The notes below the pieces were generated by a model. The model did no database searches. It was given only the letters and a program-made list of their open reading frames with translations, and was not told where the DNA came from. Positions 7,013 to 37,981 of a stretch of 64,000 bases of DNA are shown here, in pieces (the first letter of the stretch is position 1; each line of letters begins with the position of its first letter). The DNA comes from Terriglobales bacterium (GTDB lineage Bacteria > Acidobacteriota > Terriglobia > Terriglobales > Acidobacteriaceae), in the NCBI GenBank assembly GCA_025936825.1, contig JAICSO010000007.1:62001-126000 (forward strand). Reading direction: 5' to 3'. The translations under genes were made by a program, and so were the position numbers.

Positions 7013-7147
7013 GACTACCAGAAGTGTCGCGTCTTGGATTTTGGGGTGTCAACAAAGATTCGCCTGAGCAGTAACCCAAGGTCACCTTCACTAAACAGGG
7101 GCTGCCCCACTTCTCGCGGTTTTAGAGAAGTGGTAGTGACGACGAGT

Positions 7148-8389: not shown

Positions 8390-8546
8390 CCGATTGGGCT
8401 GGAACGGAGTTCATCGTAACAGACGGGACGGAAGCATCGCCGCAGAGGATCTTCCTGAATTGAGACGTTTGCAAAATTGGCACACGCACCATGACCAGCG
8501 ATTCCTTTGGTATCAGGCAAGCCAAAAGCTGAGCCGGTTGCTGCCG

Positions 8547-8897
8547 ATGTACGAATTGAGTGTGCCTATGTCTCCCGTTCTAGTGCCCTCCCTGGTCGAC
8601 AATTCCCGGCCCACCCAGATGGCCGAAGCTTTCCAAAATTTGCAGCGTGCGGTATCGCAATGTGCTGATGTCATCTTTTTCGCGGATTCCACCGGCATCA
8701 TCACGCGCGTGAATCCTGCGTTTGAAAGACTTACCGGATATTCCTCGCTGGAGATTGTTGGTAAGGACTTGAGCAGAATCACCGAAGGCGGCGCGCAGGC
8801 AAAGGCGTTTCAGGCAATCTGGCGGCGAGTATTTGAAGAAAAGCAATTCAACGGAGTCGTGAGCCTAAAAGCCGTCCGGCGAGGCGCACGCAGTTGA
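8547..8897 (+). CDS. PAS-domain sensor, N-terminal part of a frameshifted gene
   Basis: This frame encodes a PAS domain: AFQNLQRAVSQCADVIFFAD, then TGIITRVNPAFERLTGY and SSLEIVGKDLSRI. It breaks off inside the last PAS strands. The continuation (EAHAVDLTITPIHSSRGN) is encoded in the next frame before 8935. One extra A in the run at 8867-8870 would join the frames as ...VSLKKPSGEAHAVDLTITP. The PAS part and the receiver part downstream are therefore probably one gene of about 1.1 kb. The start is uncertain: ATG at 8547 or 8568; the frame upstream to 8394 looks non-coding. Confidence 0.65.
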   Translation: MYELSVPMSPVLVPSLVDNSRPTQMAEAFQNLQRAVSQCADVIFFADSTGIITRVNPAFERLTGYSSLEIVGKDLSRITEGGAQAKAFQAIWRRVFEEKQFNGVVSLKAVRRGARS

Positions 8898-8934
8898 CCT
8901 TACCATTACACCTATCCACAGCAGCCGTGGAAAT

Positions 8935-9669: not shown

Positions 9670-9683
9670 GCGGCTCTCGTATA

Positions 9684-11564: not shown

Positions 11565-12715
11565 CGATCGTCGTCCTCGTCCTGGTCGCACTCAATCTTG
11601 GCACCATCATTTTCAGTTTTCTTGCAATCTTAGCGGCGAAGCGATATCGTGCAGCTGTTCCGGCTCCACTCAAATCAGCCGAACCAATCAGCATCCTCAA
11701 GCCCCTTGCTGGACTCGATGATTCCCTCGAATCGAACCTGCGAACCTTCTTTGAGCAGGATTATCCAGATTTCGAAATTCTTTTCGCTGTTCGGGAAGCT
11801 CATGATCCTGCTCTTGCGGTCGTGAAGAAGCTTCAGGCGGAGCATCCCCGAATTCGATCGCAGGTTTTGGTTACCGGCGAGCCGCCATATCCCAACGCGA
11901 AAGTATTCAGCCTTGACCTGATGCTGTCCAAAGCCGCCAACGATCTCGTCGTCATGAGCGACAGCGACATCCGCGTAACTCCAACTTTGTTGCGCACCGT
12001 TGCGGCCGAGTTCCAGGATCCCTCGCTCGGAGTTGCGACTTGCCCGTACCGTGCTGTTCCGGGAGCGAGCATTTGGTCGCGCCTGGAGGCCACCGGCATG
12101 AACACCGATTTCATCGCGGGAATGCTTGTGGCACGCATGCTTGAAGGTGTGAAGTTCGCTGTTGGCCCCACCATCGCTGCGCGTCGTCACGTGCTTCAGG
12201 CAATTGGCGGGTTCGATCGTCTGAAGGACTACTTAGCCGAGGACTTCATGATGGGCAAGCTCGCCGCCGAGGCCGGACACGGCGTGATCCTGTCCTCTTA
12301 CGTGATTGAGCATCACATCGGCAATTCAAATTTCCGCCAGAATTTGACTCACCGTCTGCGATGGGTGCGCAGCACTCGCCGCTCTCGACCCGCCGGATAC
12401 ATTGGCCAGTTGTTCACCATGCCGCTGCCGATCGCAGTCGCACTGCTCATCGCCAATCACCATTGGTGGCCGGTATCAGCCCTCGCGATTGTCATTCGCT
12501 TCGTTGCCGCTTCCATCATGTCGCGGAGGGTCTTGCGTCGACGACTCAACTGGCTCCTTCTTCCATGCGAGGACTTCTTTGCCTTCTTTTGTTGGATCGC
12601 CGGATTCTGGGGAAAGACGATCCATTGGCGCGGGCGCGATTACCTGTTATTCAAAGACGGCACATTCAAGCCGCTTGCGACCGCTGTTTCGACGACCGCA
12701 CCGCAGGCGCGCTGA
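11561..12715 (+). CDS. GT21 ceramide glucosyltransferase-like (HpnI-like) glycosyltransferase
   Basis: A 384-residue family 2/21 glycosyltransferase. An N-terminal membrane helix precedes the catalytic core with SILKPLAGLDDSLESNL, the DSD metal/nucleotide site at 134-136 (VMSDSDIRV), LAEDFMMG (EDF 227-229) and the RLRWVR box at 265-270. Two or three helices follow at the C-terminus. The family includes ceramide glucosyltransferases and the hopanoid-linked HpnI, which attaches N-acetylglucosamine to bacteriohopanetetrol; which lipid is used here is not shown. The GTG start overlaps the stop of the upstream ArnT-like gene (GTGA), so the two are coupled and probably work on one glycolipid. Confidence 0.8.
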   Translation: MTIVVLVLVALNLGTIIFSFLAILAAKRYRAAVPAPLKSAEPISILKPLAGLDDSLESNLRTFFEQDYPDFEILFAVREAHDPALAVVKKLQAEHPRIRSQVLVTGEPPYPNAKVFSLDLMLSKAANDLVVMSDSDIRVTPTLLRTVAAEFQDPSLGVATCPYRAVPGASIWSRLEATGMNTDFIAGMLVARMLEGVKFAVGPTIAARRHVLQAIGGFDRLKDYLAEDFMMGKLAAEAGHGVILSSYVIEHHIGNSNFRQNLTHRLRWVRSTRRSRPAGYIGQLFTMPLPIAVALLIANHHWWPVSALAIVIRFVAASIMSRRVLRRRLNWLLLPCEDFFAFFCWIAGFWGKTIHWRGRDYLLFKDGTFKPLATAVSTTAPQAR

Positions 12716-12727
12716 GCCTCGGCACAC

Positions 12728-13921
12728 TCAGACGACCCGTGTCAGGCGCCCCCGCTCTAATGTGAACTTTTCGCCGCGCCAGGTGATTTTCTTTCCCGCC
12801 CAGCCCGCCACCCACACGCCGAGCGCCACAAAGTCACGAATCGGCAGTAGCCATACGAAAGCAGGCTTCTCCTGCAAAACAAGGCGAGAGCTCACAACTG
12901 CCATTGCCATGCGTGCGACAAGTGCCGCCACAAACAGGCCCATGCTCAGTCGATTCCGCCACACACACAATTCCGCAACGGCCCACGGAAGCGTGAAAGT
13001 AAGCAGCAAACCAGCGTATCCCGAGGGCCGAGAGGCGTGGATGGTTCGTGCCCATCGCAATTGGTGGGTGATAAATCCGGCTAAGTCGTAATCCGGAAGA
13101 TGCGTCTCGACAACCGAGCGCGACAGCACTACTTTCTTGTGCTGCGCGATCCGGTGCCCGAGTTCGTAATCATCTGCAAGGTAGTCGACGATGGACTCGA
13201 ACCCGCCAATTTCCTGCAAGTCGCTTTTCCGAAACGCCAGCGTGGAACCCAGTCCGAAGTGGATGCCATTCTCGATGAGATTCGCTGTGAGCACGCCCGG
13301 CACGAAATCCGTGCTGATCCCCAGCGACTCAAGCTTCGATGCGAGGGTCCGCCCAGCAGTCCCGCGATACAGGCACGTGACCAGTCCCGTATTTGACTGC
13401 TGCAGTTCAGTTATGATCGTCCGCAGATAGTCAGGCTCTACGCGAATATCGCTGTCGTTGACGACGAGGAACTCTGCTTTGGCCGCAGCTGCCAATTGAA
13501 TCAGGCTGCTGACCTTGCCATTCGCCCCTAGCCGTTTATCGCAAAGCACCATCCGGATCTTCGCTTCCGGAAATTCACGAATGAGTCGCTCGACAACCGG
13601 AACCGCTGGGTCGTTTGCCTCCGTAACTCCACAAATCATCTCGTACTCGGGAGACTCTTGGACACAATGCGATCGCAGCGCTTCATACATTTCCGGATCG
13701 GCGCCCTTGAGTGGTTTCAGAATTGAAACGGGTGGAAAGCTGGTTGCGACTGACGAACCTGCTTTTCTTTGTCGAGCGAACCTGACGCCGGCGAAAGTCG
13801 CGAGCAAGCAGTACCCAATGCTCGCAATGGTCGCGATTGCCGGGACCGCTCGCAACGCTTCACCTGTGGAAAGGAGCACGAGCAATTTTCCATGTAGAAG
13901 CTCCACGAAAGCAAACCTCAC
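12728..13921 (-). CDS. GT21 ceramide glucosyltransferase-like glycosyltransferase, second copy
   Basis: A 397-residue paralogue of the neighbouring GT21 protein, on the opposite strand and tail-to-tail with only 12 bp between stops. It has the same layout: N-terminal helix, [20 protein letters not shown] at 156-158 ([11 protein letters not shown]), LADDYELG in place of LAEDFMMG, and [18 protein letters not shown]. The start codon is a GTG (13919-13921); no in-frame ATG lies near. Sequence identity with the other copy is moderate, so this is an old duplication or two separate functions, such as two sugars on the same or different lipids. Confidence 0.8.
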
Positions 13922-13971
13922 GAATCTCGATTCTCACGTCTTCGGTTTCCTGGCCCTGCTACCATCCAATC

Positions 13972-14760
13972 GTGCCATTGGTTGAAGTTCGCAATCTGAC
14001 CAAGGTCTTCTCCTCCACGGCGACTGCATTCTCTGCGCGCAGAGCCGAAGTCCGCGCCGTTGACGATGTCTCGCTGGAGATTCATGCAGGAGAGACGCTT
14101 GGGCTGGTGGGCGAATCCGGTTCTGGCAAGAGCACTCTCGGACGGCTGATCCTCCGCCTGATCAAACCCACCTCAGGCAGCGTTCACTTCGACGGCCGCG
14201 ACCTACTTCCCACTTCAGGGCGACAAATGCGGGCCCTTCGCCGCGACATGCAGATCATCTTTCAGGATCCTTTCGGATCGCTCGATCCCCGCATGCGGAT
14301 CGCGGACCTGATTGCCGAGCCGCTCATTATCCATGGCCAGGGCAAACGAAACGAGGTCAACGCGAGAGTCGCGGAGTTGCTCCGCATCGTTGGCCTCGAC
14401 GCGTCCGCCTCAGACCGGTATCCTCACGAATTCAGCGGAGGCCAGCGTCAACGCATCGTAATTGCGCGGGCGCTCGCACTACGGCCCAAGTTCATAGTCT
14501 GCGATGAACCGGTTTCAGCGCTCGATGTCAGCGTGGGAGCACAGATTGTTAACCTGCTCGCACAACTGCAGAGAGACTTCGGACTCACGTACCTCTTTAT
14601 CTCGCACTCGATGCCGATCGTCCGTTATCTCTCGACACGAATCGCGGTGATGTATCGCGGGAAAATTCTCGAGGTCAACTCAACAGAAGAGATCACCGCT
14701 CAGCCCCAGAACGCTTATACGAAAACCCTGTTGGGCGCCACGCCTGAGATTGTGCTGTAG
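13972..14760 (+). CDS. Oligopeptide/dipeptide-type ABC transporter ATP-binding protein
   Basis: A 262-residue ABC ATPase of the OppF/DppF type. Walker A is GESGSGKST (47-55), the Q-loop is in [15 protein letters not shown], the signature is FSGGQRQR (154-161), and Walker B is [12 protein letters not shown]. The pairing of [11 protein letters not shown] and [10 protein letters not shown] is typical of peptide and nickel importers. No permease, binding protein or OppD partner is nearby, so it is an orphan here. The frame extends to 13837 but that overlaps the divergent GT21 gene; the GTG at 13972 matches the family N-terminus ([12 protein letters not shown]). Confidence 0.82.
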
Positions 14761-14774
14761 TTGTTTGTTCAGAG

Positions 14775-14870
14775 TCGTCGGTATTCTTTGCGAACTTTGC
14801 ATACTTTGCGGTTGGAGTCTTTGGGATAAATCGCAAAGAACGCAAAGGACGCAAAGAAATACGTCGCATG
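14775..14870. repeat. Inverted repeat of the 'tttgcg...cgcaaa' family
   Basis: The arm ttctttgcgaactttgcatactttgcgg pairs with cgcaaagaacgcaaaggacgcaaagaa. A second copy of this family lies at 25575-25655. It follows the ABC ATPase gene and may act as a terminator for it or for the convergent gene ending at 14888. Confidence 0.6.
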
Positions 14871-14887
14871 AGGACTTCCAGACTGCA

Positions 14888-15565
14888 TCAGTACTCGATC
14901 AGAATGAACCTCGCCGTGTCGCGTCCCGTATTCGTCAGAGTACCTGCGTTTACGTTTGTGAAGTCCTGCGCATTAAGACTGACGTTCTGAGCCCCGGCCT
15001 GCTCCATCGTCAGGTCATTCAGCGCGACCAGGAGATGTTGCGCCCGACTTATCCGGATCGCCTCACCAGTCGCCAGCTGCACCCGCGAAAACTTCACACC
15101 ACCGGCAACGAAGGAAACTGCCCATGTCGGCTTCACTGACCCGAGGTCAGGCGGGAACATGTCCGGCGCGGAATAATCAATCATGGGATCGTAGTCCACG
15201 CCGCGCCGCAACTCGACCACCAGTTCGCGGAACGTGTTCCCCGACTCATTTCGTACCACCTGCTGCTGTGGCTGATACACGATCTGCGCTTCGGCCCCGT
15301 GCCAATCGCGGCTGAAAGTCCCTTTTCCTTCCGGGATCATGGAACTGCGGCCTTCGCCTAAAGCAATGTAGACATAAGGTCCGCCATAGCAGAACGAATC
15401 CGTGCTCGCGATGCGCGGCAACTCAAGCAGCAACACGCGTACCTGCGCCGAGTCCAACACAACCCTATGATGCGGTTCATCGGCGGCGTCTCGGCAGATT
15501 GCAGATTGCGAATAAGCGGACGGGCAAAACGTAAGTAAGAATAGTCCGAGGATAAGATTTCGCAT
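14888..15565 (-). CDS. Secreted cupin-like hypothetical protein
   Basis: A 225-residue protein with a clear signal peptide (MRNLILGLFLLTFCPSAYSQ, cleavage near residue 20). The body has strands like HHRVVLDSAQVRVLLLELP and a second half EAIRISRAQHLLVALNDLTM, suggesting two small beta-barrel (cupin-like) modules. No metal-binding histidine cluster is obvious. The longer frame up to 15697 lacks a signal peptide and is rejected. Function is unknown. Confidence 0.6.
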   Translation of the reverse strand: MRNLILGLFLLTFCPSAYSQSAICRDAADEPHHRVVLDSAQVRVLLLELPRIASTDSFCYGGPYVYIALGEGRSSMIPEGKGTFSRDWHGAEAQIVYQPQQQVVRNESGNTFRELVVELRRGVDYDPMIDYSAPDMFPPDLGSVKPTWAVSFVAGGVKFSRVQLATGEAIRISRAQHLLVALNDLTMEQAGAQNVSLNAQDFTNVNAGTLTNTGRDTARFILIEY

Positions 15566-24787: not shown

Positions 24788-25507
24788 ATGCAGATTTTCC
24801 ACCGTAGCGCAAATGTAATTTCGCGGGCCTCGATTTATGCGGGCATCTTTACAGCCGCGTTTGTCCTCTGGGCGTGCATCCAGTTGCAGCGTTCGCCCTA
24901 TGTGACCTACGCCGGCGTGGTTCGGCCCCAGCCGGTGCCCTTCAGCCATCAGCACCACGTGGCCGCGATCGGAATTGATTGCCGTTATTGCCATACTTCG
25001 GTGGAGACCTCGGGTTTTGCCGGCATTCCGCCCACCAAGACCTGCATGAACTGCCACTCGCAGATCTGGACCAATGCAGCCATTCTTGAGCCGGTTCGCG
25101 AGAGCTTCCGCAGCGGCAAGTCGCTGGTCTGGAACCGCGTCAACGATCTGCCCGACTTCGTTTACTTCGATCACAGCATTCATATCAACAAAGGCGTTGG
25201 CTGTAACGAATGCCACGGCGCCGTAGATCGCATGCCTTTGATGTTTAATCACGCGTCGCTACAGATGGAGTGGTGCATCCAGTGCCATCGCGATCCGGCA
25301 AAGGTGCTGCGCCCGCGCGACCAGGTGTTCAATATGCGCTACCAGCCGCCGAGCGAAGATCAGCCGGTGCTGGTGAACGAAAAAGGTTTGAGCGATCCGA
25401 ACGGCAAGGCCTTTACGGATCAGTTGGCTTTAGGCAAGTACCTGGTGAGTACGTATCACGTGCGCTCGGTGATGGATATTACGAGCTGCAACACGTGTCA
25501 TCGGTAG
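24788..25507 (+). CDS. actA: Alternative complex III subunit ActA, pentaheme cytochrome c
   Basis: A 239-residue membrane-anchored multiheme cytochrome. One N-terminal helix (about 15-33, AGIFTAAFVLWACIQL) is followed by five CXXCH sites at C65, C86, C139, C163 and C234, the count known for ActA. Extra histidines (HQHH, FDHSIHI, FNH) can serve as distal ligands. In alternative complex III, ActA passes electrons from quinol oxidation toward the periplasmic acceptor. It leads the act-cox cluster, but 381 bp of repeat DNA separates it from actB. Confidence 0.92.
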   Translation: MQIFHRSANVISRASIYAGIFTAAFVLWACIQLQRSPYVTYAGVVRPQPVPFSHQHHVAAIGIDCRYCHTSVETSGFAGIPPTKTCMNCHSQIWTNAAILEPVRESFRSGKSLVWNRVNDLPDFVYFDHSIHINKGVGCNECHGAVDRMPLMFNHASLQMEWCIQCHRDPAKVLRPRDQVFNMRYQPPSEDQPVLVNEKGLSDPNGKAFTDQLALGKYLVSTYHVRSVMDITSCNTCHR

Positions 25508-25888
25508 GCTTTAAGCGTCAGCCTCCAGGCGCTAGCCAAGACTTGGAGCTGGAGGGATTTTCGGTTAGTTCTTTTGTTTGATTTTGTTCTTTGCGAACTT
25601 TGCGGTTAATTGCAAAGCCTTAAACCGCAAAGACCGCACAGGACGCAAAGAAGAACAGCCGCAAAGCGGCGCCAGAATAGAGCCCACGGCGTAAGCCGTG
25701 GGTAGCAGGGTTGGACGAGTTCAGCCCCGAAGGGGCGAAAGAGGAAAGCTGGCACGGAAATGCTGGGACAATAACGAAGCTGGGTCCGAGCCCGCAAGGG
25801 CGGCATTTAATTAGCCCAGCGCGTAAGCGCTGGGTAGGTCGGAAGAACGACCGAGTCCCGAAGGGACGGCACAACGAAGAATTTGCTG
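25508..25888. repeat. Repeat-filled gap between actA and actB
   Basis: No gene is seen. The gap starts with a tttgcg/cgcaaa inverted repeat (about 25585-25655). It continues with the phrase agccgcaaagcggcgccagaatag that recurs near 41532, then a row of small hairpins: gcccacggcgtaagccgtgggta, gccccgaaggggc, gcccgcaagggc, gcccagcgcgtaagcgctgggta and gtcccgaagggac. These may stabilise or attenuate the actA transcript; whether actB has its own promoter here is open. Confidence 0.7.
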
Positions 25889-28800
25889 ATGAATAACGAC
25901 GAACAAAACGGCAAGGCGCACCGCGAGGAAGTCTGTCCCGGCAAGAAGGACAAGCTCGACCTCGTTCGGCTGCAAGCCGAAATTGAAAAGAAGAACTCGC
26001 CCGAGATGTGGCGCAGCCTGGAAGAGCTAGCCGGCAAACCGGAAGTTCGCGAAATGATGCACCGCGAATTTCCCAAGGGCGCCTCGGAATGGATGGATTC
26101 GGTTTCGCGCCGAGGCTTCCTGAAGCTGATGAGTTCCTCGCTTGCGCTCGCCGGCATGACCGCTTGCACGCGCCAGCCGCTGGAGCCGATTGTTCCCTAT
26201 GTTCGCCAGCCAGAAGGCCTCGTCCCCGGCAAGCCGATGTCGTACGCGACCGCCTTCACGCTGGGCGGATACGCGACGCCGTTGCTCGTGACCAGCCGCG
26301 AATTCCGGCCCATCAAGATCGAAGGCAATCCCGATCATCAGGCGAGCCTCGGCGGCACGGATGTTTTTGCGCAGGCCTCGATCCTCGATCTGTATGACCC
26401 GGATCGCTCGCAGAACGTGCTCTACCTCGGCGAGATCAGCACCTGGGGCACATTCACCGGTCAGATTCGCGGGCCCTTGGCTTCGCAAAAGACTTTGCAA
26501 GGCGCGGGAATTCGCATTCTGTCGCAGGCGTTTTCGTCGCCGACGCTGCTGGATCAAATGCAGCAGTTCCAGAAGAATTTCCCGCAGGCCAAGTGGCATG
26601 TGTATGAGCCGGTCAATCGCGACAATGTGTATGCGGGCGCGCAGATGGCCTTCGGTCAGCCCGTCGAGACAACTTACAAGCTCGATGCTGCGGACGTGAT
26701 TGTGTCTCTCGACGCCGACTTCCTTTACGGCGGCTTCCCCGGCATGACGCGTTACGCGCGCGATTTCGCCAAGCGCCGCGACCCCGACTCCGAGAAGATG
26801 AGCCGCTTCTACGCCATCGAGAGCACGCCGACGGCAACGGGTGCGAAGGCGGACCATCGGTTGGCTGTGAAGGCAAGCGACATTGAGCGGCTTGCTAGGA
26901 GCTTGGTCGGTGAAGGGCATCCACTGAATGAGGCGAATGCTGAGTTTGCCTTCATGGTAGCCCTCGATAAGGAACTTCAGGGTCATAACGGTGCCAGTGT
27001 GGTGATCCCCGGCGATCATCAGCCACCCGTCGTTCACGCATTGTGCCATGCGATCAACGCAAAACTTGGCAACGTCGGTAAAACGGTTTTCTATGCCGAC
27101 CCAGTCCTCGCCACGACTCAGAACAACAACGACTCCATCAAAGAGCTCGTTGCCGACATGCGCGGCGGTAAGGTTGACCTGCTGATCATCCTCGGCGGCA
27201 ATCCGGTGTTCGACGCGCCTGCCGACCTCGGCTTCGCCGACGCGCTGAAGAACAGCAATATCCCCGTCCGCGTTCATCTCGGCCTGCACAATAACGAGAC
27301 TGCCGAGCTTTGCCACTGGCATATCAGCGAGACGCATTATCTCGAGCAGTGGGGCGACGCGCGGGCGTACGACGGCACCGTGAGCATCGTTCAGCCGCTG
27401 ATTGCGCCGCTCTACAACAGCAAGAGCATTTACGAGTTTGTTTCATTGCTGAATGGTCAGGCCGAAACGCCTGGGTACGAACTGGTTCAGAATTATTGGA
27501 AGTCGAAGCACTCCGGCGGCGACTTTGACACCTTCTGGCGCAAGTCGGTCCACGACGGGTTCGTTGCCGGCACGGCCTATCAGCCGAAACAAGTTTCGGT
27601 AAAGAGCGCCAGCTTCCCGGCTTCGAACTCGCCGGCTCCAAACGGCGCAGTCGAAATTAACTTCCGCCGCGATCCTTCCATCTACGACGGCCGCTTCGCC
27701 AACAACACCTGGCTTCAGGAACTGCCAAAGCCAATGACGAAGCTCACCTGGGACAACGCCCTGCTGCTTGGTCCCGCAATGGCGAAACGTCTAAACGTCG
27801 AAAAGATGGACATGGTGAAGCTCGAGCTCAACGGCAAGTCGCTCGAGCTGCCGGTCTGGGTTCAGGCCGGGCATCCCGACAACTCGGTCACAGTTTTCTA
27901 CGGCTATGGTCGTCGCCGCTCCGGCCGCGCAGGCAATGGCGCAGGCTTCGATCTCTACCAAGTTCGGTACAGTGCCACGCCCGACATCGCATTTGGAAGC
28001 GTGACCAAGACTTCCGGTCACTATCTGCTGGCGAGCACGCAGGGCTACCAAACGATGGATACTGGCGATCAGCATCGCCCCATCGTTCGCACCGGCAATT
28101 TCGACGATTTCAAGAACGAGAATTTCTCCGAAGAAGCACCGAAGCCTGAAGAAACGCTCTATCCACCCTACGATTACACCTCTCCCGAGCCGAACGGCGC
28201 GCCGCACTTCCGATGGGGAATGACCATCGATCACAACGCCTGCGTGGGTTGCAACAATTGCATCATTGCGTGTCAGGCGGAGAACAATATCCCGGTCGTC
28301 GGCAAGGAGCAGGTCAACAAGGGCCGCCACATGCACTGGCTGCGTGTGGACGTCTACTACCAGGGCGATCGCGACAATCCCAAGGCTTACTTCCAGCCCG
28401 TTCCCTGCATGCAGTGTGAAGACGCGCCTTGCGAAGTGGTTTGTCCAGTCGGCGCGACCACGCACTCCACCGAAGGCCTGAACGACATGATTTACAACCG
28501 CTGCGTAGGGACGCGGTACTGCTCCAACAACTGTCCCTATAAAGTGCGGCGCTTCAACTTCATGCTTTTCCAGGATTGGGACACGCCGCAGCTGAAGATG
28601 CAGCGCAATCCGGATGTATCGGTCCGCAGTCGCGGCGTGATGGAGAAGTGCACGTACTGCGTGCAGCGCATTACGCACGCGCGTATCGCATTCGAAGAGG
28701 CGACGACCGACGAGGCAAAGCAGAAGCCGATTGCGGAATTGCAGACCGCATGCCAGCAGTCGTGCCCGTCGAACGCGATTATCTTCGGCGACATGAACGA

Positions 28801-28933
28801 TCCGAATAGCAAAGTCGCGAAGTTGAAGGCGAACCATCGCAATTATGCAGTGCTGGACGATTTGAATACGCGTCCGAGAACAACGTACCTGGCCGCGATT
28901 CGCAACCCGAATCCGGAGTTGGAAGGAACATAG
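25889..28933 (+). CDS. actB: Alternative complex III subunit ActB (molybdopterin-like plus iron-sulfur)
   Basis: A 1014-residue fusion typical of ActB. Near residues 70-95 is a twin-arginine-type signal ([17 protein letters not shown]), placed unusually far from the N-terminus as in this family. Residues about 100-720 form a molybdopterin-oxidoreductase-like part that is thought to carry no cofactor in known ActB. From residue 785 there is a ferredoxin-like part with four cysteine groups ([39 protein letters not shown] and later CQQSC). It passes electrons within complex III. An upstream TTG at 25883 is also in frame; the ATG at 25889 is taken. Confidence 0.93.
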
Positions 28934-29020: not shown

Positions 29021-30421
29021 ATGGCGAGACCAACAGAAGTCGAAGTCGGCGAACAGAAAGCACCGGTAATTCAGCCGGGGCATACTTTCGCCAGCATTAC
29101 GGACAAGGTCGCCTCGATTGTCCTGCGCCGGCCCGTCACTAACGGTTGGCTGGTGGGGATGGTGATCTGTTTCCTCATCCTACAGTGGTTCCTGTTTGCC
29201 GTCTGCTGGCTCTTCTATAAAGGTGTCGGGGTTTGGGGTGTCAACATCCCCATCGGCTGGGGATTCGCCATCGTCAACTTCGTCTGGTGGATCGGTATCG
29301 GCCACGCCGGAACGCTGATCTCCGCCATTTTGTTGCTCCTTCGCCAGCAGTGGCGTAACTCCATCAACCGTTTCGCCGAAGCCATGACGCTGTTCGCTGT
29401 GGCTTGCGCCGGCATGTTCCCGGTCTTCCACCTTGGCCGTCCGTGGCTCGCGTACTGGCTGTTCCCGTACCCGAACACGATGTCGTACTGGCCGAACTTC
29501 CGCAGTCCGCTGGTGTGGGACGTCTTCGCAGTTTCGACCTACGGCACGATCTCGCTGGTGTTTTGGTTCGTCGGCTTGATTCCTGATCTGGCGAGCATGC
29601 GCGACACCACGCAGAACAAGGTTCTGAAATTTGTTTTCGGCGCCATGTCCATGGGTTGGCGCAATTCGGTCCGCCACTGGAACCGTTACGAAACTGCCTA
29701 CCTTCTGCTCGCAGGACTGGCAACGCCGCTGGTGCTCTCGGTGCACACCGTTGTGAGCTTCGACTTCGCCATCGGCATCGTTCCCGGATGGCACACCACC
29801 ATCTTCCCGCCCTACTTCGTCGCCGGCGCGATCTACTCCGGCTTCGCCATGGTTCTTGTGCTGGCAATTCCGATCCGCAAGTTCTACGACATCGAAGACC
29901 TGATCACCCAGCGCCACGTCGAAAACTCGGCGATGGTCATGCTCGCCACCGGCTGGATTGTGGCTTATGGGTACGGCATTGAAGCATTCGTGAACTGGTA
30001 CGGCGGCGATCCCTACGAATCGTTCCTGCGCTGGAACCGCCTGCACGGGCCATACGCCCTCTGGTACTACGCGCTCCTTTTTTTCAACCTAGTGGTGCCG
30101 CAGATTCTTTGGTTCAAGAAGGTCCGCAATAACAATTTCTTGCTGTTCCTGATCTCGCTCGACGTGCTCGTCGGCATGTGGCTGGAGCGCTTCATTATTG
30201 TCGTCGTCAGCTTGACTCGCGACTTCGTGCCGTCTTCGTTCGGTCAGTACTATCCGACGCAGTTCGACTGGGCGATTTTCATCGGCACGCTCGGATTCTT
30301 CTCGGCCTGCATGTTCCTGTTCCTACGCCTGCTGCCGGCAGTCTCCATCGCCGAATTGAAGACTCTGCTCCCGCAGGCTGAGGTCACGGTTGAGCACGAA
30401 GCGGAGGTTCATCAAGGATGA
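29021..30421 (+). CDS. actC: Alternative complex III subunit ActC, NrfD/PsrC-like membrane protein
   Basis: A 466-residue integral membrane protein of the NrfD/PsrC family with about ten helices. ActC holds one of the quinol sites of complex III. Typical stretches include FVWWIGIGHAGTLISAILLL, FHLGRPWLAYWLFPYPN and the later LVLSVHTVVSFDFAIGIVPGWHTT. The C-terminal tail is acidic and lies outside the membrane. Its TGA overlaps the ATG of actD by four bases (30418-30421), showing translational coupling. Confidence 0.93.
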   Translation: MARPTEVEVGEQKAPVIQPGHTFASITDKVASIVLRRPVTNGWLVGMVICFLILQWFLFAVCWLFYKGVGVWGVNIPIGWGFAIVNFVWWIGIGHAGTLISAILLLLRQQWRNSINRFAEAMTLFAVACAGMFPVFHLGRPWLAYWLFPYPNTMSYWPNFRSPLVWDVFAVSTYGTISLVFWFVGLIPDLASMRDTTQNKVLKFVFGAMSMGWRNSVRHWNRYETAYLLLAGLATPLVLSVHTVVSFDFAIGIVPGWHTTIFPPYFVAGAIYSGFAMVLVLAIPIRKFYDIEDLITQRHVENSAMVMLATGWIVAYGYGIEAFVNWYGGDPYESFLRWNRLHGPYALWYYALLFFNLVVPQILWFKKVRNNNFLLFLISLDVLVGMWLERFIIVVVSLTRDFVPSSFGQYYPTQFDWAIFIGTLGFFSACMFLFLRLLPAVSIAELKTLLPQAEVTVEHEAEVHQG

Positions 30422-30954
30422 AGGATCCGCGCACTTACGGTTTGATGGCTGAGTTCGACACGGTCAATGATGCGATCGAAGCCGCGCACAAGGTTTACGG
30501 CGCCGGCTATCGCAAGATCGACGCCTACGCGCCGTTCCCGGTCGAAGAACTTTCCGAAGCAATCGGTTTTCATCACAACGGTGTCGCGCTGGTCTGTCTA
30601 GTTGGTGGACTGCTGGGCGGCACTGCGGCGTACGTTCTGCAGTACTGGATTAATACCGTGGGCTACCCAGTTAACATCGGCGGACGTCCGCTGCATTCAT
30701 GGCCCGCGTTCATCATTGTTACTTTTGAAATGACCATTCTGTTCTCCGGATTGTCCGCGGTCTTCGGCATGCTCGCGCTCAATGGTTTGCCGCAGCCCTA
30801 CCATCCGGTGTTCAACGTGCCGCAGTTCGACGCGGCATCGAAAGATAAATTCTTCATCGTGATTTTTTCTTCGGACAAGAAGTACGATCCGGAAGGCACG
30901 CGCCAGTTCCTGGAAAGCCTGAACCCGACTTCAGTAGCGGAGGTCCCCAGTTAA
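30418..30954 (+). CDS. actD: Alternative complex III subunit ActD (DUF3341)
   Basis: A 178-residue small membrane subunit. The soluble N-terminus (TYGLMAEFDTVNDAIEAAHKV, then GYRKIDAYAPFPVEEL) is the DUF3341 hallmark. Two helices follow (about 57-80, VALVCLVGGLLGGTAAYVLQ, and about 98-123, FIIVTFEMTILFSGLSAVFG). It links ActC to the rest of complex III. It overlaps actC by 4 bp, and actE begins at the very next base after its stop. Confidence 0.92.
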   Translation: MKDPRTYGLMAEFDTVNDAIEAAHKVYGAGYRKIDAYAPFPVEELSEAIGFHHNGVALVCLVGGLLGGTAAYVLQYWINTVGYPVNIGGRPLHSWPAFIIVTFEMTILFSGLSAVFGMLALNGLPQPYHPVFNVPQFDAASKDKFFIVIFSSDKKYDPEGTRQFLESLNPTSVAEVPS

Positions 30955-31623
30955 ATGGTGAAGCTCCGCATAGTTTTGGGTCTTGTGGCGCTTACCATCC
31001 TGGTCGGCTGCCGCAACGACATGCACGATCAGCCGCGCTTCAAGCCGCTGGCGCAGAGCGATTTTTATGCAGACCTCCGCTCCTCCCGCGCCCCGGTGGA
31101 AGGCACGGTCGCGCGTGGCGATCTGCGCGAAGACAGCTATTTCTACACTGGCAAGATTGGCGCCAATCCTGGCGACTACATGCCGGCCGAAGTTCCGGTC
31201 AATGAAGAGACACTCGAGCGCGGACGCGAGCGCTTCAATATTTATTGTGCGCCGTGCCACTCCCGCGTAGGCGATGGCAACGGAATGCTTCCGCAACGCG
31301 GATATCGTCATCCGCCGTCGTATCACCAGGACCGCTTGCGGAAAGCGCCGCTGGGTTACTTCTTTGACGTGATCACGAACGGCTTCGGCGCGATGCCCGA
31401 CTACGCTTCGCAGATTCCGCCCGACGATCGCTGGAAGATTGTGGCTTACATCCGCGCGCTGCAGTTAAGTCAGAACGCAACCGCGGCGGATGCGGCTGGA
31501 CATCCGATTCCTTCGGCGCCGCCAAGATTCGAAGAGCCGGGCTCAGGAGCAACCTTGCCGGTGCAGTTACCTCAGACCAATGAAACAGGAGAACGCGAGA
31601 ATGTCAGCGGCGCGCACCAATAG
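30955..31623 (+). CDS. actE: Alternative complex III subunit ActE, monoheme cytochrome c lipoprotein
   Basis: A 222-residue periplasmic cytochrome c. The N-terminus (MVKLRIVLGLVALTILVGC) is a lipoprotein signal with the lipid-modified cysteine at 19. A single CAPCH heme site lies at 98-102, and GFGAMPDYASQIPPDDRW supplies the distal methionine and the usual end of a class I cytochrome c. In complex III, ActE is the likely exit point to the oxidase. It starts directly after the actD stop, and its last 23 bp overlap the start of actF. Confidence 0.92.
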   Translation: MVKLRIVLGLVALTILVGCRNDMHDQPRFKPLAQSDFYADLRSSRAPVEGTVARGDLREDSYFYTGKIGANPGDYMPAEVPVNEETLERGRERFNIYCAPCHSRVGDGNGMLPQRGYRHPPSYHQDRLRKAPLGYFFDVITNGFGAMPDYASQIPPDDRWKIVAYIRALQLSQNATAADAAGHPIPSAPPRFEEPGSGATLPVQLPQTNETGERENVSGAHQ

Positions 31624-32863
31624 TTCAAGATGGATGGCGCCCGAGATCGCGCACGTGATCTATCAGCGTGCGCTTGCAGTGGGCATTCTTTTCGGCGTTG
31701 GATCGCTGATTCTGGCAGTTTTGCCGCAGACGCGAGAGCAGTTCTTCCATTCGTATCTGCTGGGCTTCATGTTCTGGCTGGGCATCACGCTCGGCAGTAT
31801 GGCTTTCCTGATGATCCAGCACCTCACCGGTGGCGCCTGGGGCATGGTGATTCGCCGTCCGCTGGAAGCGGCCATGAGGGTTCTGCCGCTCATGGGACTC
31901 TTAGTGATCCCCGTCTTAGTGGGAATACCGTTTCTATATAGCGGCGATGCGCTCGGACATGGCTGGTTCAACGCCGTGCCCCGTGATGGCCATCTTTATC
32001 AGCTGGCGCACCAGTACATGATGCGCGGTGGCAGTCCTCAGTTCTTGTACTTAAACGGTGTCATCGGCCGCGCAATTCTGTACTTCATCATCTGGCTACT
32101 GATGGCGTGGACCCTGACGCGCTGGTCCAATGAGCAGGATGTTCCTCCAATCCAGAACCTCAGCCCGCGTTTCCGCCGCATGGCCGCGCCCGGTCTGATT
32201 ATCTACGCTTTTACGATCACCTTCGCAGCGATTGACTGGGTCATGTCGCTCGATCCGCGCTGGTTCTCGACCATCTTCGGTTTCATCATCATCGTCGGTG
32301 AATGTCTGGCGGCGATGTGCATGATGGTCATCCTGGAGACGATCCTTTCGCGCGAAGAGCCGATGGCCTCTTTGCTGAAGCCGAAAGAAGTCCACGATCA
32401 CGGCAAGCTGATGTTGACGTTCATCATGCTGCACGCCTACTTCAGCTTCTCGCAGCTGCTGATCATCTGGGCCGGCAACTTGCCTCCCGAGGCCCGTTTT
32501 TATCTGCGCCGTCTTAATAACGGCTGGGGCTGGGTCGGCCTGTTCTTAGTTTTGTTCCATTTCTCGGTGCCCTTCGCGTTGTTACTATCGCGGCCCCTCA
32601 AGCGGAATCCACATCGCCTGGTGAAACTGGCCGCGTGGCTGTTGTTCGCGCGCTTTGTGGACCTCTTCTGGTACATCGAGCCGGCATGGCACAAGAACTT
32701 CACTTGGGAATGGGGATATCTGGTCGACATCGTGGTTCCAGTGGCTATCGGCGGGCTGTGGCTCGCGTATTTCTGCCACAACCTGAGACAAAAGCCTCTG
32801 TTGCCTGAGTACGACATGCACGCGCAGGAATTCCTCGATTACGCGGGAGTTGCTCATGACTGA
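31601..32863 (+). CDS. actF: Alternative complex III subunit ActF, NrfD-like membrane protein
   Basis: A 420-residue integral membrane protein with about ten helices, paralogous to ActC and the second large membrane subunit of complex III. It begins MSAARTNSSRW, with helices from about residue 22. The motif PVLVGIPFLYSGDALGHGWF and the later HDHGKLMLTFIMLHAYFSFSQ are typical. The ATG at 31601 follows an aggagaa ribosome site inside the end of actE; the frame is open upstream to 31490, but that is actE in another frame. The stop overlaps the start of the next gene. Confidence 0.9.
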   Translation: MSAARTNSSRWMAPEIAHVIYQRALAVGILFGVGSLILAVLPQTREQFFHSYLLGFMFWLGITLGSMAFLMIQHLTGGAWGMVIRRPLEAAMRVLPLMGLLVIPVLVGIPFLYSGDALGHGWFNAVPRDGHLYQLAHQYMMRGGSPQFLYLNGVIGRAILYFIIWLLMAWTLTRWSNEQDVPPIQNLSPRFRRMAAPGLIIYAFTITFAAIDWVMSLDPRWFSTIFGFIIIVGECLAAMCMMVILETILSREEPMASLLKPKEVHDHGKLMLTFIMLHAYFSFSQLLIIWAGNLPPEARFYLRRLNNGWGWVGLFLVLFHFSVPFALLLSRPLKRNPHRLVKLAAWLLFARFVDLFWYIEPAWHKNFTWEWGYLVDIVVPVAIGGLWLAYFCHNLRQKPLLPEYDMHAQEFLDYAGVAHD

Positions 32864-33395
32864 AATTCATCACGATGAGCACAATCCGGGCACGGGTTTC
32901 GAGCGACAGGACCTTGGATCGCGCCCGATCTACGGCTTCCTGATTTCGCTCGTAATCATCGGCGTGCTGGTGTACTTCACGGTGTGGGGCATCTTCCACG
33001 TGCTGGACACATATTTCACCAAGCACGAGAACCCGCCCAGCCCTCTTGTACAGCAGGAGGCGAGCACTCCAACGCGCGCCGTTCCGGAAGGTTATCCGGA
33101 GAAGGTATTCCCCGAGCCCCGTCTTGAAACCAATGAGCGCGGCGAGATCAACGATTTTCGGCTAGGTGAAGAACAGACGCTCAACAGTTACGGTTGGGTC
33201 GATCAGAATGCCGGCGTAGCTCGCATTCCGATCACCGAAGCCATGAAGCTGATTGCGCAGCGCGGGCTTCCCACCAAACCGGCAGTGGGCGAGGTCCCGC
33301 AGTCGCCAGTGAATCTAGCGAAGGCGGCCGCCGCTGCTGCGGACACCAGCAATGCGAAACAGGCCGGCAAGCAAACAGTAAAAGGAAAAAAGTAG
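32856..33395 (+). CDS. Conserved one-helix membrane protein of the act-cox cluster, function unknown
   Basis: A 179-residue protein with one helix near residues 23-47 (IYGFLISLVIIGVLVYFTVW), then a periplasmic tail. The tail contains LNSYGWVDQNAGVARIPITE and AMKLIAQRGLP, a stretch that looks conserved and could bind a partner. The last 35 residues are Ala/Lys-rich. It overlaps actF by 8 bp and its stop overlaps the GTG of the SCO gene. That locks it into the operon between complex III and the oxidase, so a role in assembly or in joining the two complexes is a fair inference. No motif for a cofactor was found. Confidence 0.75.
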   Translation: MTEIHHDEHNPGTGFERQDLGSRPIYGFLISLVIIGVLVYFTVWGIFHVLDTYFTKHENPPSPLVQQEASTPTRAVPEGYPEKVFPEPRLETNERGEINDFRLGEEQTLNSYGWVDQNAGVARIPITEAMKLIAQRGLPTKPAVGEVPQSPVNLAKAAAAAADTSNAKQAGKQTVKGKK

Positions 33396-34276
33396 TGAGT
33401 AGTAGATTTCAAAATTCGTTGTGGACCGCGGTGGCGACGCTTCTCCTTGCCGCCTCGGCATGGTCGCAGGGTATGTACTCGGGCGCGGGTGGAATTATGG
33501 CGCCCTCGTCCAATGTGAAGCCGCCCGGATTGAAAAACGTGGGTATCGAGCAGAAGTTGAACGAGCAGCTTCCGCTGAACCTGGCATTTCGCGATGAAAC
33601 CGGGAAAGTCGTAAAGCTCGGTGACTACTTCGGCAAAAAGCCGATCATCCTCAGCCTGGTGTATTACCGCTGCCCCATGCTCTGCAGCGAGTTGCTGTCG
33701 GGGCTTGAAGGCTCGCTGAAGGCGATGAGCTTCGATGTAGGCAAAGACTTCGATGTCGTGACGGTCAGCTTCGATCCTAAGGACACGCCTGCAGACGCAA
33801 CCGAGAAGAAGGCAAGCGTTCTGAAGCACTATCAGCGGGCGAGCGCCGCGCAGGGCTGGCACTTCCTTACGGGATCGCAGGAATCGATCACCGCGCTGAC
33901 GAATGCCGTTGGTTTCAGCTACGACTACGACGCGCAGAGCGGCCAGTTTGCGCACTCGACCGCGATCATGGTGATCACGCCCGAAGGCAAAATCGCGCAG
34001 TACTACTATGGCGTGGAGTTTCCGCCGCGCGATCTGCGGCTCGGGCTCGTTCAGGCATCGCAAAACAAGATTGGCACACTTGCAGACCAGGTGCTCCTGT
34101 ACTGCTACCACTATGATCCGCAGTCAGGGAAGTACGGCGCGATCATCAGCCACATGATCCAATTGGGCGGTGGATTGACGTTGGTTTCGTTAGGAACAGT
34201 GCTGATCATCCTGTTCCGCCGCGGGTCCGATTCTGAGCACAGGGGGCAAGGCAACTCTCAGGCATATGTTCGATAA
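33395..34276 (+). CDS. SCO1/SenC-type copper chaperone protein
   Basis: A 293-residue SCO-family protein with thioredoxin fold. After a signal peptide (to about residue 25, ...AASAWSQG) come the copper-binding cysteines C93 and C97 in YYRCPMLCSEL and the third ligand H187 in GQFAHSTAIMV. A C-terminal helix (LGGGLTLVSLGTVLIILF) anchors it, which is less usual than the N-terminal anchor of typical SCO proteins. It should deliver copper to the CuA site of the CoxB encoded next. The GTG start shares its first base with the TAG stop of the preceding gene. Confidence 0.87.
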   Translation: MSSRFQNSLWTAVATLLLAASAWSQGMYSGAGGIMAPSSNVKPPGLKNVGIEQKLNEQLPLNLAFRDETGKVVKLGDYFGKKPIILSLVYYRCPMLCSELLSGLEGSLKAMSFDVGKDFDVVTVSFDPKDTPADATEKKASVLKHYQRASAAQGWHFLTGSQESITALTNAVGFSYDYDAQSGQFAHSTAIMVITPEGKIAQYYYGVEFPPRDLRLGLVQASQNKIGTLADQVLLYCYHYDPQSGKYGAIISHMIQLGGGLTLVSLGTVLIILFRRGSDSEHRGQGNSQAYVR

Positions 34277-35249
34277 TTTTCCACTTTGGCCGGCGATGGC
34301 CTCGAATCACGCGCTCCCCGTGGATTTGGTCTACATTTTTCTTGTAGTCCTCTCCGCGGTGATGACGCTCGGCATTTTCGCCACCATCGCCGTATTCGGA
34401 CTGAAATACCGCCGCCGCCATGGCCGCGAGGCCCATCAGATCGAAGGATCGCTGATCCTCGAGATCACCTGGTCGGTAATTCCACTCGGAATTTTCATGG
34501 TGCTCTTCGGCTGGGGCGCCGTCATTTACTTCCACGAGCGCACCCCACCCCGCGACTCCACCGAGATCTACGTCGTCGGAAAGCAGTGGATGTGGAAGAT
34601 TCAGCACCAGGAAGGGCAGCGCGAGATTAACGAGCTGCACATCCCGGTCGATCGCGACATCAAGCTGATCATGACCTCGCAGGACGTGATCCACAGCTTC
34701 TTCATTCCGGAGTTCCGCGTCAAGCAGGACGTAATTCCGGGCCGTTACACGACGCTGTGGTTCCGCGCAACAACGCCTGGAACATATCATCTGTTCTGTG
34801 CCCAGTTTTGCGGAACGGAGCACTCCGGCATGATTGGCCAGGTGGTCGTGATGAACCCTTCCGATTATCAGAACTGGATGTCAGGTGGGACCATCGTCGG
34901 CTCGCTGGCGCAAAACGGCCAGACGTTGTTCCAGCAACTCGGCTGTTCGACCTGCCATCGCTTTGACGTGCAGGGCCGCGGCCCCAATTTGACCGGAGTT
35001 TTCGGCAAGCCAGTGCAGCTTCAGGACGGGCGCACCGTGCTCGCCGACGAGAATTATGTTCGCGAGTCGATCCTGATACCCACCGCGAAGGTGGTTTCCG
35101 GCTTCCAGCCGATCATGCCTTCGTTCCAAGGACAGGTGAGTGAAGAACAACTGAACGCGCTGGTCGCGTATGTGAAGTCGCTGAGCCAGGCGCCTGCAGG
35201 CGCTGCCGGAACTCCGACCAACAATCCGGGACCGGCTGCAAACCAATAA
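34266..35249 (+). CDS. coxB: Cytochrome c oxidase subunit II with fused cytochrome c (caa3 type)
   Basis: A 327-residue subunit II. Two N-terminal helices (about 20-46 and 65-88) precede the cupredoxin domain with the CuA ligands H143, C178, C182, H186 and M189 (in CAQFCGTEHSGM). A cytochrome c domain is fused at the C-terminus with CSTCH at 227-231 and a likely axial Met in IMPSFQGQVSEEQLNALVAY. This fusion defines caa3 oxidases, which take electrons directly from complex III. It overlaps the SCO gene by 11 bp. Confidence 0.95.
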   Translation: MFDNFPLWPAMASNHALPVDLVYIFLVVLSAVMTLGIFATIAVFGLKYRRRHGREAHQIEGSLILEITWSVIPLGIFMVLFGWGAVIYFHERTPPRDSTEIYVVGKQWMWKIQHQEGQREINELHIPVDRDIKLIMTSQDVIHSFFIPEFRVKQDVIPGRYTTLWFRATTPGTYHLFCAQFCGTEHSGMIGQVVVMNPSDYQNWMSGGTIVGSLAQNGQTLFQQLGCSTCHRFDVQGRGPNLTGVFGKPVQLQDGRTVLADENYVRESILIPTAKVVSGFQPIMPSFQGQVSEEQLNALVAYVKSLSQAPAGAAGTPTNNPGPAANQ

Positions 35250-35261: not shown

Positions 35262-36902
35262 ATGGCTACCGTCGCAGTACCCGTCGAACAGAAGAATTAC
35301 CTGAACGCCGAATACGGCATTCGCTCGTGGCTCTTCACCACCGACCACAAGCGCATCGCACTGCTCTACCTGGTGTCGATCACCGCGATGTTCTTCGTCG
35401 GGGGCTTCTTTGCGTTGCTGATTCGGCTCGAACTGCTCACTCCTGCCGGCGACCTGTTATTGGCGGATACCTACAACAAGATGTTCTCCATGCACGGCCA
35501 GGTGATGGTGTTCTTCTTCCTCATCCCATCCATTCCGGCGGTGCTCGGCAATTTCCTCATCCCCATGATGATCGGGGCGAAGGACCTGGCGTTCCCGCGA
35601 ATCAACCTGCTGAGCTGGTATATCTATATCGTCGCGGCAGGCCTGTATCTGTGGTGCATCTTCAGCGGCGGCGTCGATACCGGTTGGACCTTCTACACTC
35701 CCTACTCGAGTCTGTTCAGCAATACGCACGTGATTGAGGCCGGACTCGCGATCTTCATCGCCGGCTTTTCCTCGATTCTCACCGGCTTGAATTTCGTGGT
35801 GACCGTACACCGCATGCGCGCGCCGGGAATGACGTGGGGGCGACTGCCGCTATTCGTCTGGTCTCACTACGCCACCAGCATCATCATGCTGCTCGGGACG
35901 CCGGTCATTGCCATCACGCTGGTGCTGGTGGTTCTCGAGCGCACCCTGAACCTCGGCATCTTCGATCCCAGCCGCGGCGGCGATCCGGTGCTCTTCCAGC
36001 ACCTGTTCTGGTTCTACTCGCACCCCGCCGTCTACATCATGATTCTGCCGTCGATGGCGGTGGTCAGCGAAATAATTCCGTGTTTCTCGCGCAAGCGCGT
36101 GTTCGGCTACACCTTCGTCGCGATGTCCAGTATCGGTATCGCGGTCATCGGATTCCTGGTCTGGGCGCACCACATGTTCGTGGCGGGCATCTCGCTCTAT
36201 TCCGCCCTTGTGTTTTCGTTTCTGACGTTCCTGGTTGCCGTTCCCTCGGCCATCAAGGTCTTCAACTGGACCGCAACCATGTACAAAGGGTCGCTCTCGT
36301 TCTCGACCCCCATGCTCTACGCCATCGGCTTCATCGGTCTGTTCACCATCGGCGGGCTTACCGGCGTGTTTCTTGCGACCCTCGGCGTTGATGTCCACGT
36401 ACACGACACCTACTTCGTGATCGCGCACTTCCATTACGTGATGGTCGGCGGCGCGGTACTGGGGTTCCTTGGCGGTATGCATTTCTGGTGGCCTAAGATA
36501 ACCGGGCGCCTCTATCCCGAAGGCTGGGGACGCCTCGCCGCGGTCATCGTCTTTATCGGATTCAACTTGACGTTCTTCCCGCAATTCATCCTCGGCTACC
36601 TCGGCATGCCGCGTCGCTACTGGGATTACTCCCATATGCCTGAGTGGCAAGGCCTGAACGTCCTTTCGACCGCCGGCGCGAGCATTCTCGCAGTCGGATA
36701 CCTGCTGCCCATGGTTTACATGCTCTGGTCTCTGCGCTACGGCAAGATCGCTGGTGACAATCCCTGGCAGGCTACGGGTCTTGAGTGGAAGACTCCCTCA
36801 CCACCACCGACCTTCAACTTTGATGAGACGCCCATCGTGACCGAAGAAGCCTACGAATACGACAAAATGCCCCTGCCCGAAGAGGTGAGCCTTGAGCGAT
36901 AG
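35262..36902 (+). CDS. coxA: Cytochrome c oxidase subunit I (A2-type heme-copper oxidase)
   Basis: A 546-residue, roughly twelve-helix catalytic subunit that reduces oxygen and pumps protons. Low-spin heme ligand H78 ([10 protein letters not shown]) and H391 pair around the heme; CuB ligands are H254 ([13 protein letters not shown]), H303 and H304 (WAHHMF); H389 binds the high-spin heme (AHFHYVM). The helix VI motif reads YSHPAVY rather than HPEVY, so the usual proton-channel glutamate is replaced by the Tyr-Ser pair known from A2-type caa3 oxidases such as that of Rhodothermus. It lies 12 bp after coxB. Confidence 0.95.
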
Positions 36903-37677
36903 TCACGCGATGGAAACGCCACTGGCGGTCGAGCACGAGGCACGGCCGGAACTGCGGCACCACTTCGCCGACGAGCAGCAACAACGCAACGCCGCGTCGC
37001 TCGGCATGTGGTGGTTCCTCGGGACAGAAATCATGTTCTTCGGCGGCATGTTCTGCGGATACCTGGTTTATCGCCGCATGTACTTCACCGAATTTGCGGC
37101 CGCCAGCAGAACGCTGAACCTCCCAATCGGCGCCTTTAATACCGTCGTTTTGTTGTGCAGCAGTTTGACCGTGGCCATGGCGGTACGCTTCGCCCAGTTG
37201 GGAAATCGCAAGATGCAGGTCAGAATGCTGCTGCTTACTCTTGTGTTTGGCCTCGCCTTCCTGGGCATCAAAGGCAAGGAGTGGGGTGACAAATACAAAG
37301 AGCACCACATTCCCACCTTCAATCACTACAACGTGATTAGCGGGGAAGGTGCGCTGACCAACGTCAAAGGGAATGCCGAGCTTCTGGGCTTAGACAAGAT
37401 TACAGATCCGGTCAAGCGCCAGCAGAGAGAGGCTGAAATCCAGCAGCGCACAAAAATTTTCTACTCGCTGTATTTCGCCTTGACCGGCATGCACGCCATT
37501 CACATGATCATCGGCGTGGGCATCTTTATCGTGATTACGTGGATGGCCCACAAAGGCCGCTTTACGCCGGAATACCACACGCCGTTAGAAATCGCCGGCC
37601 TGTACTGGCACTTCGTCGATATCGTTTGGATTTACCTGTTCCCATTGCTGTACCTCATCGATCGCCGTGGAGCTTAG
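36892..37677 (+). CDS. coxC: Cytochrome c oxidase subunit III
   Basis: A 261-residue membrane protein of the CoxC family, which stabilises subunit I. Helices include [21 protein letters not shown] and, at the end, [19 protein letters not shown], the family hallmark. A hydrophilic insert (about residues 130-185, [14 protein letters not shown] through QQRTKIFYS) splits the helices, as in other caa3 subunits III of this group. The TTG at 36892 has a strong gaggtga ribosome site just upstream inside coxA; the first ATG, at 36910, has none, so the TTG is chosen. Confidence 0.93.
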
Positions 37678-37684: not shown

Positions 37685-37981
37685 ATGGCTAATCATTCCG
37701 AACACGTCGCCTCTGCCCGGCTCTACTGGTTGATTTGGCTGGCGCTAATTATCTGCACGGTCCTGACTGCCTATGTCGCGACCGTCGACCTCGGAAAATT
37801 CAACACCGTGGTTGCGCTCGGAATCGCGACCTTCAAAGCGACGCTGGTGGCCCTCATCTTCATGAACGTGAAACACACCAGCGAGAAGATGACCAAGGCC
37901 ATCCTGATTTCCGCAGTGGCGTGGCTGTTGCTCCTGTTGTTCCTGAGCCTGGCCGATTACTCCTCGCGTTTGGCCGGATAA
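37685..37981 (+). CDS. coxD: Cytochrome c oxidase subunit IV
   Basis: A 98-residue protein with three helices, matching the small fourth subunit of caa3 and bo3-like oxidases. The stretch VALGIATFKATLVALIFMNVKHTSEKM is the family signature (a helix ending in FMNVKH). It lies 7 bp after coxC and closes the respiratory cluster. The N-terminus has no signal peptide. Confidence 0.9.
   Translation: MANHSEHVASARLYWLIWLALIICTVLTAYVATVDLGKFNTVVALGIATFKATLVALIFMNVKHTSEKMTKAILISAVAWLLLLLFLSLADYSSRLAG

Follow-up and report, generated by a model that had tools for sequence, protein, structure and literature searches.

A one-helix protein encoded between the alternative complex III and caa3 oxidase genes of a Terriglobales bacterium is ActG, with a probable role in oxidase docking

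In a 64,000-nt stretch of DNA from a Terriglobales bacterium (contig JAICSO010000007.1; the whole stretch is called the window here), genes for an alternative complex III (ACIII) and a caa3 cytochrome oxidase form one operon, actABCDEF-actG-SCO-coxBACD. A profile match and the place of the gene supported the identification of the small protein encoded at the junction as ActG, a one-helix accessory subunit of ACIII. We consider it probable that ActG is an ACIII subunit at the electron-acceptor side, where it would help the oxidase to dock. According to PMC5928083, many bacteria use ACIII in place of the bc1 complex, and it can deliver electrons to an oxidase with no soluble carrier in between.

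As shown in Table 1, actG is closely packed between its neighbours. Its ATG lies 8 bp within actF, the stop codon of which is the TGA at 32861–32863, and the last base of the actG stop codon (TAG, 33393–33395) is also the first base of the GTG start codon of SCO (33395). Matches in 55 of 60 genomes of a family sample and a second copy in the same genome indicated that the reading frame was no chance ORF. This second copy (contig C85) was 44% identical to the window copy and held the same operon position. The contig carries a second complete actABCDEF-actG-SCO-coxBACD operon (2642–15238 of locus L003).

Table 1. Features of the window, and ActG–cytochrome c fusions at loci of Verrucomicrobiota (stop-to-stop frames, numbered within each locus)
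Feature	Position	Strand	Remarks
actA	24788–25507	+	multihaem cytochrome c
actB	25883–28933	+	molybdopterin-oxidoreductase-like and FeS protein; start codon uncertain
actC	29021–30421	+	NrfD-like membrane subunit
actD	30418–30954	+	PF11821
actE	30955–31623	+	monohaem cytochrome c
actF	31601–32863	+	membrane subunit, named from place and weak similarity to actC; no Pfam match; start is a reading of the larger ORF 31490–32863
actG (gene under study)	32856–33395	+	ATG start, TAG stop, 179 aa; stub at the N-terminus, single transmembrane helix, probably periplasmic tail
conserved ActG tail segment EEQTLNSYGWVDQNAGVARIPITEAMKLIAQRGLPTK	33168–33278	+	residues 105–141; residues 107–141 match 8k9e_G
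SCO/SenC	33395–34276	+	GTG start, 1-bp overlap with actG stop
coxB	34266–35249	+	caa3 subunit II with cytochrome c domain
coxA	35262–36902	+	oxidase subunit I, named from sequence and place
coxC	36892–37677	+	oxidase subunit III, named from sequence and place
coxD	37685–37981	+	oxidase subunit IV, named from sequence and place
fusion, L170	11811–12515		fused domain 66% identical to CoxB cytochrome c domain of same operon; random draw
fusion, L192	11441–12328		68% identical; chosen locus
fusion, L171	11932–13041		55% identical; random draw
fusion, L181	11875–13047		52% identical; random draw
fusion, L187	11422–13380		69% identical; chosen locus

A 32-sequence profile searched against the PDB gave one significant sequence, ActG of the Chloroflexus aurantiacus ACIII (8k9e_G, E = 1.3e-10; next match 0.3), and a broader profile matched it at 3.6e-10. 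By single-sequence phmmer the same chain was reached at E = 0.0071 only, and a single-sequence scan of the genome contigs gave three loci. The significant alignment spanned residues 107–141 only, that is the tail segment, with the helix and linker outside it. This chain is named ActG or uncharacterised in PDB entries 8k9e, 8k9f, 8x2j and 9ilt. C. aurantiacus ActG has the same C-terminal segment (LNSYG..G.v.IPI..AM.LI..RGLP), but is 112 aa long against 179 aa in the window; its genes are Caur_0627 and Caur_2139, and 8k9e_G may stand for either.

The AlphaFold model of the window protein (mean pLDDT 77.8, pTM 0.33) predicted a stub of 21 residues, a helix at 22–57, an unstructured stretch and a helix at 94–111, followed by the conserved segment around LNSYGWVDQNAGVARIPITEAMKLIAQRGLP and an Ala-/Lys-rich terminus. 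LNSYGWVDQNAGVARIPITE is present in the tail, C-terminal to the N-terminal helix. With this model Foldseek gave one unrelated match (E = 8.3), and VIA-align run on that one chain gave none. No CxxCH haem site occurred in the whole 179 aa, and no Pfam or NCBIfam family matched up to E = 0.1; 40 aligned members of the ActG family had no Pfam or NCBIfam family in common, with single-member matches only, at E 0.002 or worse. In seven annotated plasmid records the ActG gene is labelled “hypothetical protein”. An earlier note on this DNA had described an unknown protein with one helix and no cofactor motif, its gene overlapping both neighbours; the overlaps, the helix and the lack of a cofactor motif were as described, but the protein is not a new one. 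It matches an assigned ActG in sequence, has an act cluster directly upstream, has one helix and no cofactor, and belongs to a family found only in genomes with ACIII in the four samples given below. The window ActG is an ordinary member of the known ActG kind.

ActG had been named in C. aurantiacus by 2011 (PMC3150298). As that paper lists them, the photosynthetic operon is actABCDEFG (Caur_0621–0627), with no oxidase, unlike the window operon, and the respiratory operon is actB-actE-actA-actG-SCO-cytochrome c oxidase, with the same actG-SCO-oxidase order as in the window. In Rhodothermus marinus, ActG is described as a predicted one-helix, cofactor-free seventh subunit, which by this description resembles the window protein, and as the sole subunit whose gene is missing from some clusters; it was detected by mass fingerprinting, had no density, and is thought by the authors to be non-essential for catalysis (PMC5928083). 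Another account restricts ActG to C. aurantiacus and states that R. marinus lacks it (PMC9316378); the two accounts disagree on this point. In M. roseus the ACIII genes form a cluster with oxidase genes, and its authors report that a homologue of the R. marinus actG is lacking (PMC3534657). The passages of the ACIII literature considered here give ActG a name and no assigned function.

To see how ActG was distributed, the same genomes were searched for ActG and for ActD (PF11821), the latter as a marker of ACIII. The family sample of 60 genomes, which partly overlaps the own-phylum sample, contained ActG in 55, ActD in 56 and both in 55; the one genome in which ActD occurred alone (G020) has a completeness of 76%. 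The corresponding numbers were 86, 141 and 86 in 199 genomes of the phylum of the window, 53, 69 and 52 in 194 genomes of Verrucomicrobiota (the phylum of a Chthoniobacterales genome), and 95, 164 and 94 in 193 genomes of Myxococcota (the phylum of a Myxococcaceae genome). In the own phylum, 80 of 87 ActG places lay on the strand of ActD and 1.8–2.6 kb downstream of it. Two matches came from genomes where ActD was not found: the verrucomicrobial one (G257) was rejected as an unrelated LysM-like ORF, and the myxococcal one (G464) was set aside as an exception, its ActG lying beside actE and actF on a 3.3-kb contig. Within these four samples, ActG was confined to genomes with ACIII (55/55, 86/86, 52/53 and 94/95 ActG genomes had ActD, both exceptions being explained), and 57–75% of the ActD genomes of the three phylum samples carried it. 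Neither absence from most ACIII operons nor presence in ACIII-free genomes, the two findings on which the earlier note would have given up its proposal, was encountered in these samples (ActG in 86/141, 52/69 and 94/164 ActD genomes).

ActG was also considered as a subunit of the cytochrome oxidase itself. This candidate was rejected on the lack of any validated ActG match in the ACIII-free genomes of the four samples, taken regardless of their caa3 or cbb3 content; the window has a separate gene for oxidase subunit IV (coxD, Table 1).

ACIII-caa3 superoperons were already known in Acidobacteria, one of them in Terriglobus roseus KBS 63 (PMC8407424). Forty of the best 148 ActD places of the own phylum were drawn at random, two from the genome of the window being excluded, and their flanks, to a maximum of 9.5 kb in each direction, were searched on the same strand for caa3 and cbb3 only. 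Thirty ACIII loci had an adjacent caa3 operon, and in this slot 24 carried ActG and six a haem protein. This agrees with the earlier note, which took the gene to be fixed between complex III and the oxidase and proposed its conservation in other ACIII-caa3 operons as a check. Five further ACIII loci (L129, L148, L150, L160 and L163, the last with a view of 5.4 kb only) showed neither caa3 nor cbb3 within the viewed part of the same strand, and ActG occurred in none of them. The other places were three uninformative contig ends and two reduced actC-actD-actF loci with a divergent oxidase and no ActG, giving ActG in 24 of 37 informative loci; actA was out of view in L127 and L134. The difference between 24/30 and 0/5 had a P of 0.0014 by Fisher's test, with loci that are not independent by descent. 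The five oxidase-free loci may represent a diverged ACIII type, so the association of ActG with the oxidase may reflect descent.

In Verrucomicrobiota, 20 of 54 places were drawn; 12 earlier places, mostly ActG-free, had been excluded, so that this draw leans to ActG. Fourteen were ACIII-ActG-cbb3 loci, two were ACIII-ActG-caa3, three were ACIII-caa3 with a haem-domain ActG between, and one was part of a split operon. No SCO was found in the gene lists of the 14 cbb3 loci. The adjacency of ACIII and cbb3 was already known in verrucomicrobial methanotrophs and Opitutaceae (PMC8498564).

Sixteen plasmid records matched ActG, and all eight that were examined (from Methylobacterium, Azospirillum, Mesorhizobium, Bradyrhizobium, Nitrobacter, Paraburkholderia, Paludisphaera and Rhizobium) were act clusters in which the ActG gene follows actF and precedes SCO (coxB in Methylobacterium). 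These ACIII-ActG-caa3 operons (L066–L073) of rhizobia and others, some on plasmids typed as conjugative or mobilizable, constitute a portable piece of the respiratory chain.

Rearranged operons separated ActG from its usual upstream neighbour. In L108 the order was actA-actB-actE-ActG-SCO-coxBACD-actC-actD-actF, and L104 and L109 were alike as far as in view; in all three ActG was apart from actF and still directly before SCO-coxB. Their genomes belong to one bacterial family (f53) and were counted as one event. In two further genomes (G300 and G380; L106/L107 and L112/L113) the operon was split, actABCDE lying apart from actF-ActG-SCO-cox. L193, where ActG was listed before actF only through its long open frame, was excluded. 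Where the ACIII and oxidase sides of the operon were separable, actG followed the oxidase side.

These arrangements bear on a rival explanation, that ActG merely stabilises ACIII as a structural subunit, has no role towards the oxidase and lies at the junction only as the last act gene. Such a subunit would suit the Chloroflexus actG in an act operon listed without an oxidase (PMC3150298) and the presence of ActG as a chain in the four PDB entries. However, the actG of L108, and as far as can be seen that of L104 and L109, is flanked by actE and SCO and is not the last act gene, none of the five sampled oxidase-free loci has it, and the cytochrome c domain of the oxidase occurs fused to it (see below). 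We therefore regard a purely structural role as doubtful, and prefer a subunit at the acceptor side.

ActG was missing from some loci. In 55 own-phylum genomes ActD was found without an ActG match, and 15 chosen loci from these (L074–L088), beyond the random draw, were examined. Two (L076 and L077) contained a diverged ActG, five (L079–L083) had a haem protein in the slot, two were reduced, one stopped at actF, four (L084–L087) had no oxidase in the stretch viewed, which was just 2 kb in L085, and L088 had cbb3 genes and no ActG. The oxidase-linked loci L116, L118 and L119 had a slot protein that was unrecognised by the ActG profile. In L074, L075, L093, L149 and L152 a divergent cytochrome oxidase came after a reduced actC-actD-actF set without recognisable ActG. 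As actA, actB and actE were not found in those stretches either, each looks like an ACIII-like membrane module in reduced form next to an oxidase. From the literature, Nitrospirales ACIII clusters are described without ActF and ActG and mostly with a bd-like oxidase downstream (PMC12342949), and for the Flavobacterium johnsoniae ACIII, which was isolated together with its aa3 oxidase as a supercomplex, six subunits are given, ActA-F (PMC8552683). Thus, by the latter description, ActG is not necessary for every supercomplex, and the Chloroflexus operon listed without an oxidase indicates that ActG needs no oxidase.

The earlier note had suggested a linker or assembly factor dedicated to an ACIII-caa3 supercomplex. 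One part of this idea stood: ActG holds the junction place in caa3 operons, and its order beside SCO is conserved. The specificity for caa3 did not, since ActG precedes cbb3 in 14 of the 20 sampled Verrucomicrobiota loci, where SCO was not found, and is present in the Chloroflexus operon without an oxidase (PMC3150298). Its presence as a chain in solved structures points to a lasting subunit rather than a transient factor, and some oxidase-linked loci, as well as the Flavobacterium supercomplex as described (PMC8552683), do without ActG. A dedicated linker is, in our judgement, unlikely.

Haem-bearing forms were found at the same place. In five verrucomicrobial loci (L170, L192, L171, L181 and L187) the ActG frame ran on into a CxxCH cytochrome c domain resembling the cytochrome c domain of CoxB, caa3 subunit II, of the same operon (Table 1), whereas the window ActG lacks a haem site. 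When 14 short cytochrome c domains were placed in a tree, the L170 and L192 fusions grouped among the CoxB domains of L170 and L192, and the L171, L181 and L187 fusions among those of L171, L181 and L187. This grouping suggested that the CoxB domain had been copied onto ActG twice, separately, on the sequences compared; gene conversion would look alike. L184–L186, with similarly long ActG frames and a haem site lacking a CxxCH match, were left uncounted. The CoxB cytochrome c domain of L181 (13873–14934) has CMMACH (CxxxCH) replacing CxxCH.

Other slot proteins were less closely tied to ActG. In the ACIII-cbb3 loci L118 and L119 the slot protein had one helix and a cytochrome c domain, and that of L116 lacked the domain; all three were connected to ActG by place and faint likeness only. 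In the own-phylum loci L079–L083 it had one helix, a cytochrome c domain with a single haem, and a tail with a conserved IPVxxA. It may be an ActG into which a haem domain was inserted, but its likeness to ActG was weak (hhalign probability 5.6%, P = 0.0068; motif E = 4). In these five loci ActD and ActE apparently formed one frame (about 396 aa in L079–L081), and coxB was last. In L115 (11477–12619) no ActG gene was found, and CoxB has RLPIERAMQIL after its cytochrome c domain, near its end; these 11 residues gave E = 0.016 with a motif profile and 1.6e-4 with the whole-family profile, against a best value of 0.49 for shuffled ORFs.

A further reading makes ActG a reduced relative of a one-helix cytochrome with haem that served as electron carrier between ActE and the oxidase, with loss of the haem in the window form. 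This is very unlikely: cytochrome c slot proteins do occur in the own phylum (L079–L083 and the same class in six random-draw loci) and in Verrucomicrobiota (the five fusions and, less clearly, L118 and L119), but the verrucomicrobial haem domains group with the CoxB domains of their own operons and so look like gains, and the link of the L079 type to ActG is weak.

Haem c attachment takes place outside the cytoplasm, which places the tails of the fused forms in the periplasm, and by analogy the tail of the window ActG is likely to be periplasmic as well. Since the very cytochrome c domain of CoxB is fused there, ActG is the likely working place of that domain. The gene neighbourhoods suggested that ActG is located where ACIII hands electrons to the oxidase. 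As a subunit at the acceptor side, ActG would be anchored by its helix in the membrane arm of ACIII, and its periplasmic tail with the YGWVDxxxGxxxIPIxxAMxLxxxRGLP segment would reach the electron-exit side of the complex (ActE/ActA). There the tail may help to position the partner's cytochrome c domain; the partner would be caa3 CoxB here and cbb3 or another acceptor elsewhere.

A broader version of this role can be put forward tentatively, with less confidence than the acceptor-side place itself. ActG may be a general acceptor-docking tether, the IPIxxAM end of which holds an incoming cytochrome c domain at ActE, whatever the oxidase. It would then mark the hand-off point, so that lineages repeatedly made it an extra carrier by means of the cytochrome c domain of the oxidase or, as in L115, bear an ActG-like motif on CoxB.

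As far as the literature passages show, four points are new: the breadth of the ActG family, its position at junctions of ACIII with caa3 as well as with cbb3, its behaviour where operons are rearranged or split, and its fusion to the cytochrome c domain of the oxidase itself. The passages contain no mention of ActG-cytochrome fusions. If ActG does dock the acceptor, the use of caa3 as well as cbb3 oxidases by ACIII would be partly explained by a single small gene, and the haem-bearing forms that occur in nature would be ready-made test cases.
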